A stretch of 64,000 nucleotides of DNA, taken from an uncultured Caulobacteraceae bacterium (GTDB taxonomy: Bacteria > Pseudomonadota > Alphaproteobacteria > Caulobacterales > Caulobacteraceae). Location of the stretch: contig CAKZPF010000004.1 in NCBI GenBank assembly GCA_937138625.1, positions 310,001 through 374,000 on the forward strand, in the 5' to 3' direction. Position numbers and translations under genes: made by a program. The notes under the pieces are model-generated. The model did no database searches. It had not been told where the DNA came from and was given only the letters and a program-made list of their open reading frames with translations. Every line of letters starts with the position of its first letter. The first letter of the stretch is position 1. Shown here one piece after another: positions 24,434 to 63,992 of this stretch.

Positions 24434-26308
24434 ATGAAGCCTCTTCATCCCATCGATACATCAAACACGTCATTTTCGCATATTGGGTTTGAAACTGTTG
24501 AAGCCACCGGGGAAGGCTTGAGGCCTGATCTTCAAGACCAAAGCAGCGCCACTGCCGATCCAACATATAAGACCCAAGGAGGTGAAGCGCTTTATGACCT
24601 CTATAAGAAGGCCCAACAGGCAAGCTGGTCCGAGTTCTTGGCCTGGAACGGCATTCTGGTGGATGTGCCCAAAAATGTGATTTTGCCAGCTGGCATGACG
24701 ATCTATCTGCAAGATCCCAGCACCTTGCCGATGTCAGATAACGACAGCCCTGATATCTCCCTGTATCTGGATCCAGATGTTGAAATGCCTCGTGATGGGG
24801 GGTTGACAGTTTACACCGAAACTCTGGAACGCAGCCTCGTACACCAACACCTTGAAACCCTGAGATCCACAGGTAAACGCTATGGATTTGATCTCAATCA
24901 CTTCCAGCGTGACAACACAGCCCTCAGCCATGATGGTGTTTTCTTTCAACAGGCCTTCAACGGTCTTGTGGACGTTTTGGGCGAAGACGGGGCCCTTGAA
25001 GTGTTGGCCCATGCCGAAAGCACATATCGGATAGCTGTGATGCAATCCCAAGGCGCCTATTTGCCCAGTGCATTTGAGAAAAGTCTCCAAGCGCAACAAC
25101 AATCCAAAGTCCTGTTCAAACAAGAATATGGCGAGACCTGGGGCCCCATCATGCTGGCATTCGCCAGCCATGCTGTTCCCGGTGGTGGGGGCGGTTGGGA
25201 TCTGGTTATGTTGGGTGGGTTCGGCGCAGCTGCGCCTCGGGCTTTGCCGGGAGGCGCTCGTCCCCAGATGCAGTTCATTGAAATGCGACGGACGTTAAAT
25301 GATGGCCAAACCCTGATCCGCCGCAAGGACCTGCAAACGAATCAAGTGAAATACGCCCTAGAACCCGCCAACACTATTGCCGGCGGCACAATTCCCGTTG
25401 CGCCAGAACGCGTCCGTCAAGAGATCAGAGAAACGCGAATTCCAGAACCTGTTAATATACAAAGCACACAACAGCGCACAGATACACGCTATCGCCAGAC
25501 CTATCCCGTGCCCGCGCCCCATCAACGTGAGGCGATGAGACAACTGGAAGGTGTCACCACGCGCCTTCAGAATACCCAGTCCCAGTGGGAGCTTCAGCTG
25601 CTCAGCCGCATTCAGCTGCACAGACACCGCAGCACCCCAGAATTGTTGGGGGAATTGGAAACCTTGTCGGCCTCATCACCGATTGGCATGAACAACGCTC
25701 GTGCCAATATTGAGGTGATCACAACCATTCTGACCTCAAGGGGGATTGATGCCCATACTCATATCTATGGCATCAACAGTTCAGCGGCCCGTTCGATCCC
25801 CATGACCAGTCAATCGCCACAATGGCTGGAAACCGCAAATGTTCGCTATGAACTGCCGGAAACTACGCGTTTGCCTGGCGCGCGTGATTATCACCGAGAC
25901 TATGACTTTTACACCCGCCGAGAAGACCGCGCCTATAATCAACCCACACGCAGTCAGTACCCAAACCAAATTGTTGTGTCTGAGCATATGCGGTCTGTTG
26001 CCCAATCAGAAGTTAGCCGCATCCTCAATATCCCTCAGGCCCAACGCACGCCCACACAACAGCTAGTGGCCATGTATCACCGCATGCCTGGCGAGCAATT
26101 GGGGGCCCGGCTCGCGGCCTCGGTTACGCCCAATTCATCTGGGCAGTTTACGCCCAAACAAGTGCAGCAAACCCAAGCCGCCAGCCTAATATGGATGAGC
26201 AGGGGGAGAAACCCCCATGGATACATAGAGAATCTCCAGTTTGGTCATCAACGAAACCTCTCGACAGCCAACATCCCCATGACGGTGCCCCGCCTTTTCG
26301 GGCAATAA
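24434..26308 (+). CDS. Unrecognised 624-residue protein with LysM-like N-terminal segment
   Basis: I do not recognise this protein as a whole. Residues 49-93 resemble a degenerate LysM domain (SWSEFLAWNGI and ILPAGMTIYLQD correspond to the LLxxNxL and xxxGxxLxIP strands). There is a Gly-rich segment HAVPGGGGGWDLVMLGGFGAAA near residue 250. The rest is Gln/Arg/Thr-rich and probably extended. There is no signal peptide. A TATACAT box precedes the start, and upstream DNA is AT-rich; the Shine-Dalgarno is weak. It ends at the bidirectional terminator at 26333. It shares the LysM-like element with the 152- and 161-residue proteins, so I place it in the dispersed novel set. Confidence 0.72.
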   Translation: MKPLHPIDTSNTSFSHIGFETVEATGEGLRPDLQDQSSATADPTYKTQGGEALYDLYKKAQQASWSEFLAWNGILVDVPKNVILPAGMTIYLQDPSTLPMSDNDSPDISLYLDPDVEMPRDGGLTVYTETLERSLVHQHLETLRSTGKRYGFDLNHFQRDNTALSHDGVFFQQAFNGLVDVLGEDGALEVLAHAESTYRIAVMQSQGAYLPSAFEKSLQAQQQSKVLFKQEYGETWGPIMLAFASHAVPGGGGGWDLVMLGGFGAAAPRALPGGARPQMQFIEMRRTLNDGQTLIRRKDLQTNQVKYALEPANTIAGGTIPVAPERVRQEIRETRIPEPVNIQSTQQRTDTRYRQTYPVPAPHQREAMRQLEGVTTRLQNTQSQWELQLLSRIQLHRHRSTPELLGELETLSASSPIGMNNARANIEVITTILTSRGIDAHTHIYGINSSAARSIPMTSQSPQWLETANVRYELPETTRLPGARDYHRDYDFYTRREDRAYNQPTRSQYPNQIVVSEHMRSVAQSEVSRILNIPQAQRTPTQQLVAMYHRMPGEQLGARLAASVTPNSSGQFTPKQVQQTQAASLIWMSRGRNPHGYIENLQFGHQRNLSTANIPMTVPRLFGQ

Positions 26309-34563: not shown

Positions 34564-35022
34564 CTAGGTCTCGCAGCCGCAATCGCCAGGAGAAATCTCT
34601 GTGCCCTGGCGGGCCTCGATTGTACGGAGATAATCGTTAACCTCGTACCTGTCTTGGGCGCTTATGATCACAGGTTTCACGAACTGATCGACCTCGCCAC
34701 CCTTGAAACCTGCAGGCACGGGATTACCACCCGAAAACGAACGCGCCTGCCTAAGGGCGTCATCATAGCCAGCCGGACCACACGGCACATGTAAAAGTTG
34801 GCACTCATAGATGTCTTGGCTGAGCTGAGGGTTGCCCTCTAGGATTTGCTGGGCCGTCACTTGATAACCGCCACCTTTGGAAACAGCCTTGGCGATATTC
34901 TGCAAAGTCCCATCAAAATCTGTGCCGAGATCAGCACATTTCACAGTATAATAGCAGCCAAATTCAGGGTCTGCCACGGTACCGCTTGGCGGACCAGAGA
35001 CGGCAGGGGAAATACTCATCAC
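34564..35022 (-). CDS. Unrecognised LysM-like protein with AGFKGGEV motif and C-terminal CGC
   Basis: 152 residues, no signal peptide. Residues 24-81 resemble LysM with extra cysteines: YYTVKCADL, ILEGNPQLSQD and CQLLHVPCG. The linker carries AGFKGGEVDQFV (104-115), found also in the 59- and (diverged) 73-residue proteins just upstream. The last residues are SPGDCGCET, echoing ACGCA at the end of the 161-residue protein at 41915. It is the last of three minus-strand genes ending at the hairpin before kynA. Function unknown; the paired cysteines could form disulfides or bind a metal. Confidence 0.75.
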   Translation of the reverse strand: MMSISPAVSGPPSGTVADPEFGCYYTVKCADLGTDFDGTLQNIAKAVSKGGGYQVTAQQILEGNPQLSQDIYECQLLHVPCGPAGYDDALRQARSFSGGNPVPAGFKGGEVDQFVKPVIISAQDRYEVNDYLRTIEARQGTEISPGDCGCET

Positions 35023-35063: not shown

Positions 35064-35285
35064 CTAAATTTTCAGACGCGAGCCATCGGCATTGGGCGTC
35101 ATGACATCGTCCAGGCTTTTAGGGTTGGCCGGTATGTGCGCCTTCTCGGCTGGCTTTTCGGATTTAGCATTATCAGCAGTAGTTTTTACGGCTTTCAACA
35201 GGTCTTGATTGAACAGTTGTTCGGCTTCAGCACCTTTGGACCCGGCGGTATCAACAGGATTACTTACAGATTTAGCGGCACCCAT
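35064..35285 (-). CDS. Unrecognised 73-residue protein (KGAEA motif)
   Basis: 73 residues, polar and Lys/Ala-rich, probably largely disordered. AAGGAGG stands seven bases before the ATG. The first half, VSNPVDTAGSKGAEAEQLFN then QDLLKAVK, aligns with the 59-residue protein upstream (VSN, then AGFKGGEVENLFSKDLIEVIK), so the two are paralogues. It lies 41 bases before the LysM-like gene and 84 bases after the 59-residue gene, probably in one transcript. No function can be suggested from known families. Confidence 0.75.
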   Translation of the reverse strand: MGAAKSVSNPVDTAGSKGAEAEQLFNQDLLKAVKTTADNAKSEKPAEKAHIPANPKSLDDVMTPNADGSRLKI

Positions 35286-35369: not shown

Positions 35370-35549
35370 CTATTGCTCAGCCTTCGCTTGCTCGGCTTTG
35401 CTATCGCTGGCTTCAGTTTTCGGCGGAGGGTTATTCTTGATCACCTCGATCAAATCCTTACTAAACAGGTTTTCAACCTCACCACCCTTGAAACCAGCTG
35501 ATCCAGTGCTTTGGGCTTGAGATGTATTGCTTACCGTGCGTGCAGTCAT
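35370..35549 (-). CDS. Unrecognised 59-residue protein (AGFKGGEV motif)
   Basis: 59 residues. The ATG at 35549 has GAGGAGG eight bases upstream and a perfect TATAAT box at 35576-35571 on the same strand. The core AGFKGGEVENLFSKDLIEVI (18-37) is shared in part with the 73- and 152-residue proteins downstream. The tail is Lys/Glu/Ala-rich. The protein is too small for a family assignment. It looks like the first gene of a three-gene unit. Confidence 0.72.
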   Translation of the reverse strand: MTARTVSNTSQAQSTGSAGFKGGEVENLFSKDLIEVIKNNPPPKTEASDSKAEQAKAEQ

Positions 35550-37711: not shown

Positions 37712-38074
37712 CTAGGCGCGCACAGTAAATTCGCGCGGGGAACCTTCGCCCTCATCTAACCATGGCCCCCCAAACGCCGGATTATCGGGGTCAAAGGAAT
37801 AGATACAGTCTGTCATTGGCTGGAGTGAAAGCTCGCCCAGCAACGTATTCATGGTGGGCACAATATTGGGATATTTCTGCGCGAAGTAAGCATAGTCTTC
37901 GCGAATGAAGTCGATCATTTCCTTCACCGAGACACGATTATCGCCATCAGTGCTCAGGGTCTTGATCAGACAATGCTCGAAACGGATTTGGTCTCCAATA
38001 GACGCGTTTGGGTCATCACTGGCACCACTGACCGTGGCAATAAAATGGCGTATGTTCTCGTTGACGGTTGACAT
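37712..38074 (-). CDS. Unrecognised 120-residue protein with EF-hand-like loop
   Basis: 120 residues, acidic, no signal peptide. Residues 41-52 (STDGDNRVSVKE) fit the 12-residue EF-hand loop: Asp at positions 3 and 5, hydrophobic at 8, Glu at 12, with Ser at position 1. The loop is flanked by helices HCLIKTL and MIDFIREDYAYFAQ, so it reads as a genuine single EF-hand. It is convergent with thiC (15 bases between stops) and has an AT-rich upstream region with TTTATAT-like boxes. It shares the calcium-loop theme with the other small genes of the set. Confidence 0.72.
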   Translation of the reverse strand: MSTVNENIRHFIATVSGASDDPNASIGDQIRFEHCLIKTLSTDGDNRVSVKEMIDFIREDYAYFAQKYPNIVPTMNTLLGELSLQPMTDCIYSFDPDNPAFGGPWLDEGEGSPREFTVRA

Positions 38075-41618: not shown

Positions 41619-41906
41619 ATGCAAATTCACACCACCAATCCGGGGCCCCATCCCGTCGACAGCACGGGCACGACTGACCCAAAATTCACCCTGCCCAACG
41701 AGACCTTCGAGCCCGTCAAAGGGGGCGGCAGTCCTAACGACCCCCATGTCCGTGCGTATGAGCGCCGCCAAAACCCGATCCCAGCCGAGGCGCGCAACCC
41801 CGCCATCGACCAGGAAATCATCTACGAAAAAATTCACGGCGAGCCGATGTCGCCAGAACAGCAGTTCGATCTGCATTCAAAGCCCAAATCTGATCCAAGC
41901 CCATAG
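41619..41906 (+). CDS. Unrecognised 95-residue Pro-rich protein
   Basis: 95 residues rich in Pro, Glu and charged residues, likely extended (DSTGTTDPKFTLPNETFEPV, then KGGGSPNDPHVRAYERRQ). There is no signal peptide or cysteine. GGGAGGAAACACA precedes the ATG, a strong site. The 161-residue LysM-like gene starts eight bases after its stop, so the two form a pair. I do not recognise it. The KGGG segment is at best a faint echo of the KGGEV motif elsewhere. Confidence 0.7.
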   Translation: MQIHTTNPGPHPVDSTGTTDPKFTLPNETFEPVKGGGSPNDPHVRAYERRQNPIPAEARNPAIDQEIIYEKIHGEPMSPEQQFDLHSKPKSDPSP

Positions 41907-41914
41907 GCGGCCTC

Positions 41915-42400
41915 ATGACCCCCGATATCTTTTATCGTGTCACCTGCGGTGACAGCGTGCAGGACATTTTGCACGCTGCCCGCCAGGAAGGGATCTTTCT
42001 GAGTGAAGATAAGCTGCTGTGGTTCAATCCTCAGCTGGCCCAAGGAACGCCCGATGCCTGTGAGCTGGTGCGCCTTAGCCCACCAGAGGGCGCACCCGCC
42101 TGTCCACGCCCGGCCCATGAAATTGACGACAACACCTATCCCGAACCGTGGAATACCACTGAACCCGCACGTGCCACCGAACCTATATACACCGATCCTG
42201 AAGACCAAAAGCCAAGCAAGTCCAAGGCTAAACCCGTCCAATACCGCCTCAGCGAGGATGATAACAGCCCCCAGTGGCTCGATGGGGCACAAAGCCCTGA
42301 AGAAGAGAAAACAGACCCCCCACCGCCTCAGCCGCCCGCAAGCCCACACCCCGCCGACATGCGCATCCTGAACGATGACGAGGCCTGTGGCTGCGCCTGA
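41915..42400 (+). CDS. Unrecognised LysM-like protein with C-terminal CGC
   Basis: 161 residues. Residues 6-57 match the LysM-like part of the 152-residue protein at 34564: FYRVTCGDSVQDIL, LLWFNPQLAQ and CELVRLSPPEG line up with YYTVKCADL, ILEGNPQLSQ and CQLLHVPCG. The middle is Pro/Asp/Lys-rich and disordered. The protein ends NDDEACGCA, again with a C-terminal Cys-Gly-Cys. No signal peptide. Translationally close to the 95-residue gene. The shared ends and domain make these two a real family; its role is unknown. Confidence 0.75.
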   Translation: MTPDIFYRVTCGDSVQDILHAARQEGIFLSEDKLLWFNPQLAQGTPDACELVRLSPPEGAPACPRPAHEIDDNTYPEPWNTTEPARATEPIYTDPEDQKPSKSKAKPVQYRLSEDDNSPQWLDGAQSPEEEKTDPPPPQPPASPHPADMRILNDDEACGCA

Positions 42401-47494: not shown

Positions 47495-47679
47495 GGGCTT
47501 GTAGATAGGTCTCTTTGCCGCGTTTGCCTAGACCTGACGGACCGATTTTGCCATTTTTTCACGTTAAACGCATATAACTTTTCGAACGCCCCTATAACGA
47601 TTTTAAAAATGTCATTGACCCACAAAAAAACCATAGTAAAGTGCCTGTAGGGAACACAATATATAAGAGGAGGATCCCC

Positions 47680-48102
47680 ATGAGCATTCACGCAACCCCA
47701 ATACAGCATGGCACCGAAGCTCGCTTCCAAGCCGACATTGATCACGATGGCACACTGGATCAGGTTAAACTGGTTCATTATGAAGACAAAAATGGCCATC
47801 ATTTTAGTGCCCTGGTCGAGCGCTATGGGAATGGCTCACAGCCTGGTAACGCCGCCATCGCCACCGACACGCGCCCGGGTCAGGCCCTGGGTGAGGGCCC
47901 TGTGCTGACGTTCTCTGGCGCGCTAGAAACCGATGACCTGACACCGGGCTTTTTTGAAGTGAGCTTTGACAATAGCGTCGATGGCGGCTTCGAAGTTCAA
48001 TATACAGATCGTGTGCTTGTTCCCTCGGGCAAAGTAAACGGTCAATGGCGTGAGTCCGACGGTTTCAAGCTGGCAAATCCGCAAGCCGTTGATCTGCGAT
48101 AG
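47680..48102 (+). CDS. Unrecognised 140-residue protein with DxDxDG loop, paralogue A
   Basis: 140 residues, beta-rich, acidic, no signal peptide. AGGAGG (47668-47673) precedes the ATG. Residues 19-27 (DIDHDGTLD) form a calcium loop of the VCBS/FG-GAP type, followed by QVKLVHYEDKNGHHFSALVE. It aligns throughout with the next gene: ERYGNG/QRYGGG, LTFSGALE/LQFSGASLE, VQYTDRV/VTYTDKV. Eight bases separate the pair, which is a tandem duplication. Function unknown; extracellular proteins often use this loop for folding on export. Confidence 0.77.
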   Translation: MSIHATPIQHGTEARFQADIDHDGTLDQVKLVHYEDKNGHHFSALVERYGNGSQPGNAAIATDTRPGQALGEGPVLTFSGALETDDLTPGFFEVSFDNSVDGGFEVQYTDRVLVPSGKVNGQWRESDGFKLANPQAVDLR

Positions 48103-48110
48103 GTGAAATC

Positions 48111-48566
48111 ATGAACACCTTAGCGGAAACCCATTTACCGGACACCCATGGCACCCGAGAAGCCCATGGAAGCCAGGTCAATTTTTGGGCTGACGTCAAC
48201 CAAGATGGTGCCCTCGATCATGTGCGGGCCATTGCCTACGAAACCGGTGACGGCATTGATTTCAGTGTGTTTGTGCAGCGCTATGGCGGCGGGATCGAAG
48301 GTCAACCTGCCCTCGATACGGCTCAATATTATGGTTCGGAAATCAACCCAGATCGCGCCGTGTTGCAATTCTCGGGCGCGTCACTTGAGGCCGGCGACCA
48401 AACACCTGGTCGCTTTCATCTGTATTTTGACGGCCCCCAAGACGGCTTTCGTGTGACCTACACGGATAAGGTGGCCTTGGAAACGCCCATCACAACGGAC
48501 GAGAAAAACTGGCCCGAGCCCGTGACAGAGCGCGATGCCGACCCTGTTCAGGTGCCAACCTTCTGA
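48111..48566 (+). CDS. Unrecognised 151-residue protein with DxNxDG loop, paralogue B
   Basis: 151 residues. It is the diverged tandem copy of the 140-residue protein. The calcium-type loop is DVNQDGALD (residues 28-36), then HVRAIAYETGDGIDFSVFVQ and RYGGG. It has an additional Pro/Glu-rich tail. No cysteine and no signal peptide. The shared pattern of small, AT-flanked genes and a strong terminator at 48621 mark it as part of the dispersed set. Confidence 0.77.
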   Translation: MNTLAETHLPDTHGTREAHGSQVNFWADVNQDGALDHVRAIAYETGDGIDFSVFVQRYGGGIEGQPALDTAQYYGSEINPDRAVLQFSGASLEAGDQTPGRFHLYFDGPQDGFRVTYTDKVALETPITTDEKNWPEPVTERDADPVQVPTF

Positions 48567-56058: not shown

Positions 56059-56089
56059 ATGCGGCTTTGGGTAACCAAGGCCGCATTTT
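56059..56089 (+). terminator. Intrinsic terminator after the 97-residue gene
   Basis: A 12-pair stem (56059-56070 with 56075-56086, one wobble) around GTAA, followed by a short TTTT. It ends 30 bases after the stop of the 97-residue gene and lies 30 bases before the next ATG. Confidence 0.78.
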
Positions 56090-56118
56090 CGAAAGTAAAC
56101 ACCACACAGGAGAGCACC

Positions 56119-56427
56119 ATGGTCAATATCACCACCAGCACCCCCCTTGAAACAATGGAAATGCCCTATAATGAAACCTTCCCATTGGCAGGAACACCCA
56201 ATAACGCCATCAATGTAGTGAAGGGCGAGACCCTGTTCCGCAATCTGGAAGAGCCTGCGAACTTCAAACAGGGCATGCGCATAGATCTGGATGGCGATGA
56301 CGTCAAGGACCGCATCTATTACATCAAAAATGAAGAGGGTGATCACGAATACATTGCCCGCAAAGGCGAACGCAGTACCTATTGGGACCCTGGCCAAGGC
56401 GGTGGTCACATCTGGGAACGCCAATAA
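56119..56427 (+). CDS. Unrecognised 102-residue protein with DxDGD motif
   Basis: 102 residues. Residues 56-64 (DLDGDDVKD) form an Asp-rich loop like the calcium loops of the 140- and 151-residue proteins, followed by a strand RIYYIKNEEGDHEYIARK and a Trp-containing tail. No cysteine or signal peptide. GGAGAGCACC stands before the ATG at 56119. It ends before the terminator at 56454. The pattern I-D-L-D-G-D, then hydrophobic strand, suggests a small beta protein stabilised by calcium. Confidence 0.72.
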   Translation: MVNITTSTPLETMEMPYNETFPLAGTPNNAINVVKGETLFRNLEEPANFKQGMRIDLDGDDVKDRIYYIKNEEGDHEYIARKGERSTYWDPGQGGGHIWERQ

Positions 56428-61192: not shown

Positions 61193-61240
61193 TTGACAAA
61201 AAGATTTACATTTTTCATGTTCCTTGCAAATGCGCAAGGA
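61193..61240 (+). promoter_or_regulatory. Promoter and ribosome-site hairpin before the 132-residue gene
   Basis: TTGACA (61193-61198) is a perfect -35 box, with CATGTT (61216-61221) 17 bases on. The leader then has CCTTGC/GCAAGG (61222-61227 with 61234-61239), a six-pair hairpin whose 3' arm contains the AAGGA of the Shine-Dalgarno (61236-61240). Confidence 0.6.
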
Positions 61241-61250
61241 AGCAACTGGC

Positions 61251-61649
61251 ATGAACACAGATCCCATCATCGTCCATCAAGAAAGCCGTGGCTGGGGCTT
61301 CCAAGCAATTTGGACCTTCGATCCCGATACAGGCCTGTTGGAAAACTCCACTTTTTTGGGGGCGCTTGTTGAGACTGTGGACATAACCACCGAAGCCCAG
61401 AACACCATGATCGGTGGGCTTCAAATTCCCAACGCCGAGCCCGCCCAGGCGATTGACGTTAGAACGCTGAGCCACTTTGGTGATGCTGTTTATAATCTCA
61501 GAACCACTGATCTGGATGGAGACCAAGAACTGGATCCCGGCGAGGCGGTTTTGGGTGTCCGAGGCCAGCCCAATGGCGATGGCCAAGAGGTGCAAATGCT
61601 GTTCACCAACACCGAAACAGGCTGGAAACTCAGCCATACATCAGACTGA
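61251..61649 (+). CDS. Unrecognised 132-residue protein with complete EF-hand loop
   Basis: 132 residues, no signal peptide. Residues 87-98 (DLDGDQELDPGE) fit a 12-residue EF-hand loop: Asp at 1, 3, 5, hydrophobic at 8, Asp at 9, Glu at 12. Around it are AVYNLRTT and AVLGVRGQPNGDGQEVQML. It is a diverged relative of the next protein: WTFDPDTG/WCFNPETG, then a TxxxIDVRTL/IDLNAL segment and VLGVRG/TAVIRG. A strong -35 box and the hairpin in the leader imply regulation. Function unknown. Confidence 0.75.
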   Translation: MNTDPIIVHQESRGWGFQAIWTFDPDTGLLENSTFLGALVETVDITTEAQNTMIGGLQIPNAEPAQAIDVRTLSHFGDAVYNLRTTDLDGDQELDPGEAVLGVRGQPNGDGQEVQMLFTNTETGWKLSHTSD

Positions 61650-61670
61650 TTGCAAGAAAGGCGACCACAG

Positions 61671-62081
61671 ATGAATATGTTACCCCCCATCAGCTTCGGC
61701 GAAGAGTTCCAATTTCACAACACGGGCGGGCATGGCCTGTTTGGCCGTCAGTTGGATTGGTGTTTCAATCCCGAAACGGGCATGTTTTCAGGGCAAGACA
61801 AGACCGGGGAAACCACACAGAATATCGACCTGAACGCCTTGGTGCAGGATCATTTTGTCAACGACGGTGAAGGGGCATCAAAGCGGCAAGTCATCATGCT
61901 GAATTCAGGCGAGACCGATAATGTCTGCGTCACATGGCATGATGATGGTGACAACATTGTTGAATCTATGGAAGTCACCGCTGTCATTCGGGGGCGCCGC
62001 GACAATCATGGTCATGATTACCAAAACTACCAATATATCAACCATCGTGATGGCGAGTGGATATTCACAAACTTTCTTTAG
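61671..62081 (+). CDS. Unrecognised 136-residue protein, paralogue of the preceding gene
   Basis: 136 residues. It shares WCFNPETG and the order of segments with the upstream protein, and keeps an Asp-rich element DDGDNIVESMEV at the equivalent place, though it is less like a full EF-hand. The C-terminal third is rich in Asn, Tyr and His (NHGHDYQNYQYINHRDGEWI). No signal peptide. AAGAAAGG lies eight or more bases before the ATG. Twenty-one bases separate it from the first paralogue. Confidence 0.74.
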   Translation: MNMLPPISFGEEFQFHNTGGHGLFGRQLDWCFNPETGMFSGQDKTGETTQNIDLNALVQDHFVNDGEGASKRQVIMLNSGETDNVCVTWHDDGDNIVESMEVTAVIRGRRDNHGHDYQNYQYINHRDGEWIFTNFL

Positions 62082-62153: not shown

Positions 62154-63992
62154 CTAAGCCCGAGGGGCGTTGTAAACATATTGTTTCAGGATCTCGTTGT
62201 CTTCACCGCTGAAGCCCATGCGCTTCATGCGCATGGCCAAATCCGCATTACCGAACTCAAGACCCGAAGGCCCTAAGGCCCGCGCCATTTTGTCCACCTG
62301 AGACCAATAGATATGCATTTGATTGCGTTCCGCATATACTTGTCGTGCTTGATCTAAGAAAGGAGATACATCTTTCCAGTCTTTGACCGGGGGCAAAGTC
62401 AATCCATCTTGGCCTGCCAGATTTCTCCAAGCATCAAGGTGCGTGTTTAAGTTCAAAACCAATGCCAAAGCCTTGGTACCATCATTGGGTTTGACAGGCT
62501 GTCCGCCCACCACAGGCTGCTGCACTGTAAAGGCCAAATTTGCCCAGCTTACGGTCTTAAGGTCATTAAGTTCCGGCTGTGTCTCTTTCAGCAACTTCAT
62601 CAACTGAAAGCCACCAGCACGCCCTGATTTCAAAATCTGGTTTATGGAAAAGGCCGCTTTTTCAGGATCCATTTTCCAGATCTGCTCGGCTTGAAACGCC
62701 GTCAAGGGCTGCGGAGCGTCGGGGTTATAATCCCCACTTTCGCTGGTGCCAACAATGGGGCCAAGGGTCTTGTCACTGGTCTGATCCCACAGATAGCGCC
62801 CCTTCATCAGCCAAACCCCGTCTTGGGGCACGCGCAGGTGCTGCCCAAAGCCATAAAGGGCCTCATTGATCTCGGCCCAATCGCCAACACCCATGTCCAC
62901 GCCTGGGTTGGCCAAGTCTGTCAGCATGGCCTGATATTTGTCTTTCGGCAGATCACATTTGGCCTGATACAGAAGCTGCTGCATATGTTCGGGGCTTTGT
63001 ACGTACTCCGCGGGCTGCAACAGGGCATACTCCCGCAGCGAGGTGTGAACCGCATCCATAAAGCCCAACACCGCATCCGTGCGGATCACTTCGCTGGCTA
63101 TGCCTTTATACCGATCCTTGATGCGTTGTTCTTGGGCTGGTGTGGCGCTTTCGTGCATGGTGTGCTGTCCGCCCGAGTACCGCACTTCCGCAAAGCTGTA
63201 ATAAGCATGGAACGGATCAAGCGAGTAGGACCGAAAGGCAGGCTCGAGCCAATCCAGCAGTCGTTCAGCCGTTTGGTTTTGCTGGATCCAGCCCGCGGCA
63301 TCTTCACCGCGAAACTGATCATCCGAAGCCCAGTCTTTTATGGCACCCTTCAACCGTCTGGGACTGCCGCCCTGCAACGGATTGCTAGAGGCCACAGCGT
63401 CCATCGCGGTGGACAGCTCGCCATAGGCACGGGCCCGATCCTGTTCAGAACCACCTCCGATTGCTGTGGTGATGTGGGCAACAGCCGCCCCGCGGGGTTG
63501 GTTCAGATAGTCGCCCGCTTGGTCCATAATATCCAGAAGACCATCGGGAATGCCTGGCAATTCAATATAGGCAATATCTTTGAAATTGACATCAGGCTCG
63601 GTGTGGATATTGCCATCAACTTCGGGCTCGATCCCCAGTCCCACCAGCAACGGCTTTAGACCTGCGTTGTCATCGCCGAATAAACGCAAAACCCCGTTCA
63701 GGCCAGGAAAGCGCATATACCAGTTGCCGTTCAAATCCTGATAAATGCGCATGGGCAGGTTGAAGCCCGACTCCATGCTCAGTTCCGGCACCCCCCGAAT
63801 GGTGCCCAACATGCGGGTCAAGGGCTTGAGTGAGGGAAATTTTTTAGAGACCAACTCCAGCGCGTTTTCATCGAGCTGCTTATTGTAAACCTGAAGGTCA
63901 AAACCCAAAAACTCGCCATGGGTATTGAAGCGCATTTTGATGGCCGTATCCAACCCGAGGACCTTAAACGGCAAAGGATGCTTGAGACCCAT
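62154..63992 (-). CDS. Unrecognised protein of at least 612 residues (start may lie outside)
   Basis: At least 612 residues; the frame remains open to the window edge, so the 5' end is uncertain. Gln/Asp/Leu-rich and mostly helical. It has short motifs such as MRIYQDLNGNWYMRFPGLNG and a central GGGSEQDRARAYGELSTAMD, then WIQQNQTAERLLDWLEPAFR. A few small tyrosine/tryptophan clusters occur. I see no membrane helix, no repeat and no family. It converges on the paralogue pair and is the largest member of the novel set in the window. Confidence 0.68.
   Translation of the reverse strand: MGLKHPLPFKVLGLDTAIKMRFNTHGEFLGFDLQVYNKQLDENALELVSKKFPSLKPLTRMLGTIRGVPELSMESGFNLPMRIYQDLNGNWYMRFPGLNGVLRLFGDDNAGLKPLLVGLGIEPEVDGNIHTEPDVNFKDIAYIELPGIPDGLLDIMDQAGDYLNQPRGAAVAHITTAIGGGSEQDRARAYGELSTAMDAVASSNPLQGGSPRRLKGAIKDWASDDQFRGEDAAGWIQQNQTAERLLDWLEPAFRSYSLDPFHAYYSFAEVRYSGGQHTMHESATPAQEQRIKDRYKGIASEVIRTDAVLGFMDAVHTSLREYALLQPAEYVQSPEHMQQLLYQAKCDLPKDKYQAMLTDLANPGVDMGVGDWAEINEALYGFGQHLRVPQDGVWLMKGRYLWDQTSDKTLGPIVGTSESGDYNPDAPQPLTAFQAEQIWKMDPEKAAFSINQILKSGRAGGFQLMKLLKETQPELNDLKTVSWANLAFTVQQPVVGGQPVKPNDGTKALALVLNLNTHLDAWRNLAGQDGLTLPPVKDWKDVSPFLDQARQVYAERNQMHIYWSQVDKMARALGPSGLEFGNADLAMRMKRMGFSGEDNEILKQYVYNAPRA

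Follow-up and report, generated by a model that had tools for sequence, protein, structure and literature searches.

As outlined in Table 1, the gene P3 lies on the minus strand of the window (the whole 64-kb stretch of DNA that was analysed), where it is the third ORF of a run P1-P2-P3. A sequence-only reading of this DNA had listed a protein of 152 residues here without stating the strand. The ORF is real and lies on the minus strand at 34564-35022, with the listed 152 aa beginning at the GTG at 35022; the start codon, however, is likely the ATG at 35019, resulting in a protein of 151 aa (MSISPAVSGPPSGTVADPEFGCYYTVKCADLGTDFDGTLQNIAKAVSKGGGYQVTAQQILEGNPQLSQDIYECQLLHVPCGPAGYDDALRQARSFSGGNPVPAGFKGGEVDQFVKPVIISAQDRYEVNDYLRTIEARQGTEISPGDCGCET) which ends in ...PGDCGCET. 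Its LysM-like domain contains the cysteines C22, C28, C73 and C80 and carries a 7-residue insert after strand 1. The second protein, P4, which is encoded on the plus strand, ends in ...DDEACGCA.

Table 1 Features of P3, P4 and their surroundings, and large LysM-led proteins of the same genome. Positions refer to the window; those with a prefix refer to contigs C4 and C9.
Feature	Position	Strand	Description or basis
P3, gene of the finding	34564..35019	(-)	151 aa from the likely ATG start at 35019; homologous to P4
LysM-like domain of P3, residues 22-80	34780..34956	(-)	profile, hhalign, predicted structure
P3 residues 103-118, AGFKGGEVDQFVKPVI	34666..34713	(-)	motif common to P1 and P2
Cys-Gly-Cys codons, P3 C-terminus	34573..34581	(-)	sequence
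P2, 73-aa ORF	35064..35285	(-)	upstream of P3, 44-base gap; strong ribosome-binding site
P1, 59-aa ORF	35370..35549	(-)	first of the run P1-P2-P3; strong ribosome-binding site
95-aa acidic orphan ORF	41619..41906	(+)	8 bases upstream of P4
P4, twin of P3	41915..42400	(+)	161 aa; Pro- and acid-rich linker
LysM-like domain of P4, residues 5-57, cysteines C11 and C49	41927..42085	(+)	profile, hhalign, predicted structure
Cys-Gly-Cys codons, P4 C-terminus	42386..42394	(+)	sequence
Large LysM-led protein	C4:372154-375202	(-)	3' part = window 62154-63992
Large LysM-led protein	C9:139173-141081		PF01476
Large LysM-led protein	C9:97989-99657		PF01476

The two small proteins encoded ahead of P3 are paralogues of each other (z 10.1). 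Furthermore, both share with the middle of P3 (residues 103-118) the motif AG-[FS]-KG-[GA]-E-[VA], referred to below as GFKGGEV-type. A profile built from P1, P2 and P3 returned only these three places of the genome at E < 0.05, and 200 genomes of the order yielded no further match. From their spacing, the 95-aa acidic orphan and P4 are perhaps on one transcript. The flanking genes, as read from their translations, include tryptophan dioxygenase, kynureninase, thiC, acyl-CoA synthetase and aldehyde dehydrogenase, and the neighbours of P3 and P4 look like housekeeping or metabolic genes; no metal-related gene was found among the flanking genes read. Adjoining thiC, a 120-aa acidic orphan (window 37712-38074, minus strand) shows one EF-hand-like loop with a Pfam match below the cut-off. 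Rfam, promoter and terminator scans near the P3 and P4 genes yielded nothing usable.

The sequence-only reading had paired P3 with the gene at 41915, and the comparison of the two proteins bears this out: they are matched by BLASTP with E = 2e-5, and their local alignment reaches z = 7.4 against shuffles. The columns common to both include Y-x-V-x-C-x-D, N-P-Q-L-x-Q and C-x-L-[LV], so that all three framework motifs previously pointed out are present, as is the shared C-terminal Cys-Gly-Cys, which is followed by ET in P3 and by A in P4. The identity amounts to about 28-34%, and the linkers of the two proteins align poorly with each other. Judged by their sequences, P3 and P4 are homologous, i.e. 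a pair of paralogues known solely from one genome.

Neither protein gave a match in Pfam, NCBIfam, PHROGs or PADLOC, the curated Pfam model PF01476 included, and the single PDB sequence match (microviridin, E 0.18) was read as chance. Because curated libraries recognise neither P3 nor P4, an in-genome LysM profile was made; the six LysM domains behind it had been located by PF01476 and belong to proteins of this genome other than P3 and P4. Among the 1491 window ORFs this profile ranked P3 first (10.8 bits) and P4 second (about 6 bits), while the best of 1000 shuffles each scored 4.5 and 3.3, respectively; the E-values across all window ORFs are modest (0.027 for P3, 0.78 for P4). A 122-aa orphan (window 56059-56427, plus strand) with a short LysM-like start, NVVKGETLF, came third in this ranking and was not significant (E 1.5). 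The alignment of the twins was compared with the in-genome LysM set by hhalign, giving 76% probability and a score of 28 over P3 residues 23-79, and 200 column-shuffled controls reached at most 3% probability and a score of 15.5. Pairwise alignments gave z 6.8 for P4 against the LysM at C4:374851 and z 5.0 for P3 against the LysM at C1:21860.

Structure prediction pointed in the same direction. For the N-terminal 62 residues of P4, AlphaFold2 gave a model with a pLDDT of 75 and the order strand-helix-helix-strand (E6-8 H15-24 H31-37 E51-53). LysM domains dominated the Foldseek matches of this model, with 3zqd ranking highest (probability 1.00, E 0.05); the Z values from VIA-align went up to 6.9. 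The full-length model of P3 is weak, with a pLDDT of 43 overall and 50-62 within the domain, and its better-predicted part shows the same order as P4 at low confidence. For the whole P3 model Foldseek returned nothing significant; in a second structural look its top two matches were the LysM of YkuD (Z 4.2) and that of a Volvox chitinase (Z 3.6). The LysM call of the sequence-only reading is thereby upheld by the in-genome profile, by hhalign with its controls and by the predicted structures, in which the P4 domain mostly matches LysM structures and the top rows of the low-confidence P3 model are LysM. Overall, the LysM fold of P4 is well supported, and that of P3 is very probable.

The LysM fold spans about 45-50 residues. 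With the LysM domains of PF01476 (e.g. YkuD of B. subtilis or algal and plant chitinases), which are the best structural matches of both models, P3 and P4 share the strand-helix-helix-strand order, the Y-x-V-x-x-G/A-D start and N-P in helix 2. In contrast to them, P3 and P4 add conserved cysteines and the CGC tail, P3 has its insert, and neither protein has a known partner domain. As the pair escapes Pfam, it is LysM-like by fold and profile, beyond the reach of the curated model, and is best regarded as a lineage-restricted form of a familiar domain. In LysM domains generally, the ligand groove is lined in part by the loop that follows strand 1. Since the 7-residue insert of P3 sits in this loop, its sequence makes glycan binding by P3 doubtful.

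Both proteins are rich in cysteine, with six residues in P3 (4.0%) and five in P4 (3.1%) compared with a mean of 0.92% for 58 window genes; the other signal-less orphan proteins of the window are mostly cysteine-free. One pair, C28/C73 in P3 and C11/C49 in P4, is conserved and flanks the two LysM strands, whereas the fifth cysteine of P4, C63, has no confidently aligned counterpart in P3. In the models the residue numbers of predicted strand partners sum to about 59 in P4 and about 100 in P3; the corresponding sums for the cysteines are 60 for C11 and C49, 101 for C28 and C73, and 102 for the extra pair C22 and C80 of P3. By this arithmetic on low- to medium-confidence models, as opposed to measured distances, the cysteine pairs appear close to the cross-strand register needed for disulfides. 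No hydrophobic N-terminal stretch or obvious Sec signal was found in P3 or P4. If the cysteine pairs are disulfides, the proteins would nevertheless work outside the cytoplasm.

In order to place the Cys-Gly-Cys ends, the own genome was searched for TGY-GGN-TGY followed by a stop within nine bases in any frame, which gave 27 places with TAA or TAG and 119 with TGA. Of the open frames read upstream of these places, 14 span at least some 60 codons when measured from the preceding stop; among these 14 only P3 and P4 had a gene-like codon-position composition. Genome-wide, no other believable CGC-ended gene was found among the places listed, which comprise all but about 19 of the 119 TGA-type ones. 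One half of what the sequence-only reading had named as its refutation therefore did occur, in that no further CGC-ended relatives came up among these places. As the twins are the sole CGC-ended genes among the places listed, the tail and the N-terminal domain that they have in common occur together.

As for the role of this tail, lipidation had been suggested and is unlikely. There is neither a lipobox nor an obvious signal peptide, and because the cysteines of P3 sit at positions -5 and -3, whereas those of P4 are at -4 and -2, P3 is unfit for a C-terminal CaaX-type prenylation site. CGC may instead have a cross-linking, redox or metal role. The sulfhydryl oxidase Erv2 uses a C-terminal CGC as a shuttle disulfide, which passes electrons to or from the active site of an enzyme. 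The likeness of P3 and P4 to it, a Cys-Gly-Cys close to the C-terminus, rests on three residues, and unlike Erv2 they have no recognised sulfhydryl oxidase domain.

Tentatively, we read P3 and P4 as exported LysM modules which are stapled by a cystine and whose variable tail bears a CGC for redox chemistry or cross-linking. The conserved cysteine pair (C28/C73, C11/C49) would face across the two LysM strands and form the cystine, which would in turn imply an oxidising site outside the cytoplasm, reached without the usual signal peptide. The partner on which the LysM domain docks could be a protein or a glycan containing GlcNAc; for P3 the glycan option is weakened because its insert lies in the loop that usually helps to bind glycans. 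The CGC of the tail could then act as a redox-active or cross-linking disulfide, tying the protein to itself or to its partner. Deriving the function from the anatomy in this way is guesswork. An export route for signal-less proteins was not identified when VipB, the phage sheath and a PrtD-type exporter were sought. For the type I secretion ATPase (PrtD-type), the strongest matches lay below the cut-off and were read as MsbA-type or other ABC exporters.

The wider LysM inventory of the genome bears on a different and rather unlikely explanation, in which P3 and P4 would be stand-alone adaptors acting in trans, with the LysM domains of large orphans acting in cis, to load signal-less cargo for export; P1 and P2, which carry the GFKGGEV-type motif of P3, would be cargo or partners. 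PF01476 locates seven LysM places in the genome, three of them near the N-terminus of large proteins without another confident domain (Table 1), so that stand-alone and N-terminal LysM do occur side by side. The analogy comes from type VI secretion (T6SS), in which LysM, be it a separate protein or a fused domain, forms the link between VgrG and the effector (PMC10673891), and the likeness to those proteins lies in this combination of small stand-alone and N-terminal-side LysM within one genome; the motif common to P1, P2 and P3 likewise speaks for adaptors. Against them, the genome has no match to T6SS VipB and none to the contractile sheath (Phage_sheath_1), no vgrG was seen within the 64-kb window, hence none as a neighbour, and the P3 and P4 genes are far from the large LysM genes. 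P3 and P4 furthermore differ from the T6SS LysM proteins in having a CGC tail.

No relatives of the large LysM-led orphans were found in plasmids or viral contigs. The protein at C4:372154-375202, which extends beyond the window, is an orphan of 1013 aa whose sole known domain is a LysM on the N-terminal side (Pfam E 9e-8). Within the window, a cysteine-free orphan of 624 aa (24434-26308, plus strand) has a LysM-like segment near its N-terminus; the segment aligns with the LysM at C9:139173-141081 (z 11.7) without any alignment beyond it and scores weakly with the generic in-genome LysM profile. An identical LysM sequence (AARYGVSVETLLELNPSLSSGYGD) was found at the very ends of two contigs (C1:21860-21943, C7:91276-91347), an arrangement that would result if the assembly had been interrupted by a repeated gene. 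Other orphans carry Asp-rich loops: two related 150-aa orphans stand in tandem at 47641-48566 (plus strand, z 26.8) with loops such as ADIDHDGTLDQV and no convincing Pfam match. At 61224-62081 (plus strand) related orphans (61224 versus 61650, z 9.5) follow one another, which are signal-less and show Asp loops resembling EF-hands; their run extends past the window (L101 4858-8362) and has no confident Pfam match.

We consider it similarly improbable that P3 and P4 are cytoplasmic metal or redox proteins, whose cysteines, those of CGC included, bind zinc or copper and whose LysM-like domain is a protein-protein module. The clustered cysteines with CGC and the lack of an obvious signal peptide would suit such proteins, and LysM proteins of the cytoplasm are known, with Kbp of E. 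coli among the fold matches. However, the conserved pair stands in the cross-strand register that is typical of structural cystines, and the flanking genes read offer no metal-related neighbour.

The assembly comprises 2.02 Mb in 10 contigs, is 98.8% complete and alone represents its genus in the collection; what is said here of the whole genome draws on pattern and profile searches together with selected stretches. No convincing relative of P3 was found among about 150 genomes of the order, where the matches beyond its own genome were both weak and partial (best E 0.02), and neither P3 nor P4 has relatives in genome_contigs, viral_contigs, plasmids or phages; for this reason their conservation is judged on two sequences only. 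With no relatives anywhere searched, the pair might be lineage-restricted duplicates with little selected function, retained by chance beside many orphan genes, to which we again give a low probability. In line with this, the GC content at third codon positions is lower in most orphan genes here (0.47-0.62) than it is in housekeeping genes (0.65-0.73). Yet the cysteine positions, NPQL and the CGC ends were kept despite the low identity of the twins, and this suggests selection on P3 and P4.

The sequence-only reading had also mentioned that LysM domains serve as connectors in contractile-tail baseplates; such a role of P3 and P4, be it in a contractile tail or in an injection baseplate, is hardly credible, for although the LysM fold is shared with such connectors (phage gpX, R-pyocin, eCIS baseplate), some of which match the P4 model (6j0n_b, Z 5.9) as all other LysM kinds do, the genome has neither Phage_sheath_1 nor VipB, no phage or PHROG relatives were found, no tail genes lie near P3 and P4, their neighbours look metabolic, and nothing connects the pair with an injection machine or with the tail of a phage.

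Taken furthest, the reading as stapled, exported modules would describe a lineage, so far represented by one species, with non-Sec export or surface assembly for its many orphans, in which LysM docks both in trans (P3, P4) and in cis (large proteins) and the CGC tails of the stand-alone modules form or exchange disulfides with partners; we regard this extension as very improbable. P3 and P4 themselves show that LysM can diverge enough to escape curated models, and in this genome the domain recurs both as small stand-alone proteins and near the N-terminus of large orphans. Should the cysteine staple and the CGC tail not be extracellular, P3 and P4 would be a lineage-specific pair built on a common domain. 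If both work extracellularly, this would suggest that an export route has gone unrecognised and that LysM modules can be tethered covalently.
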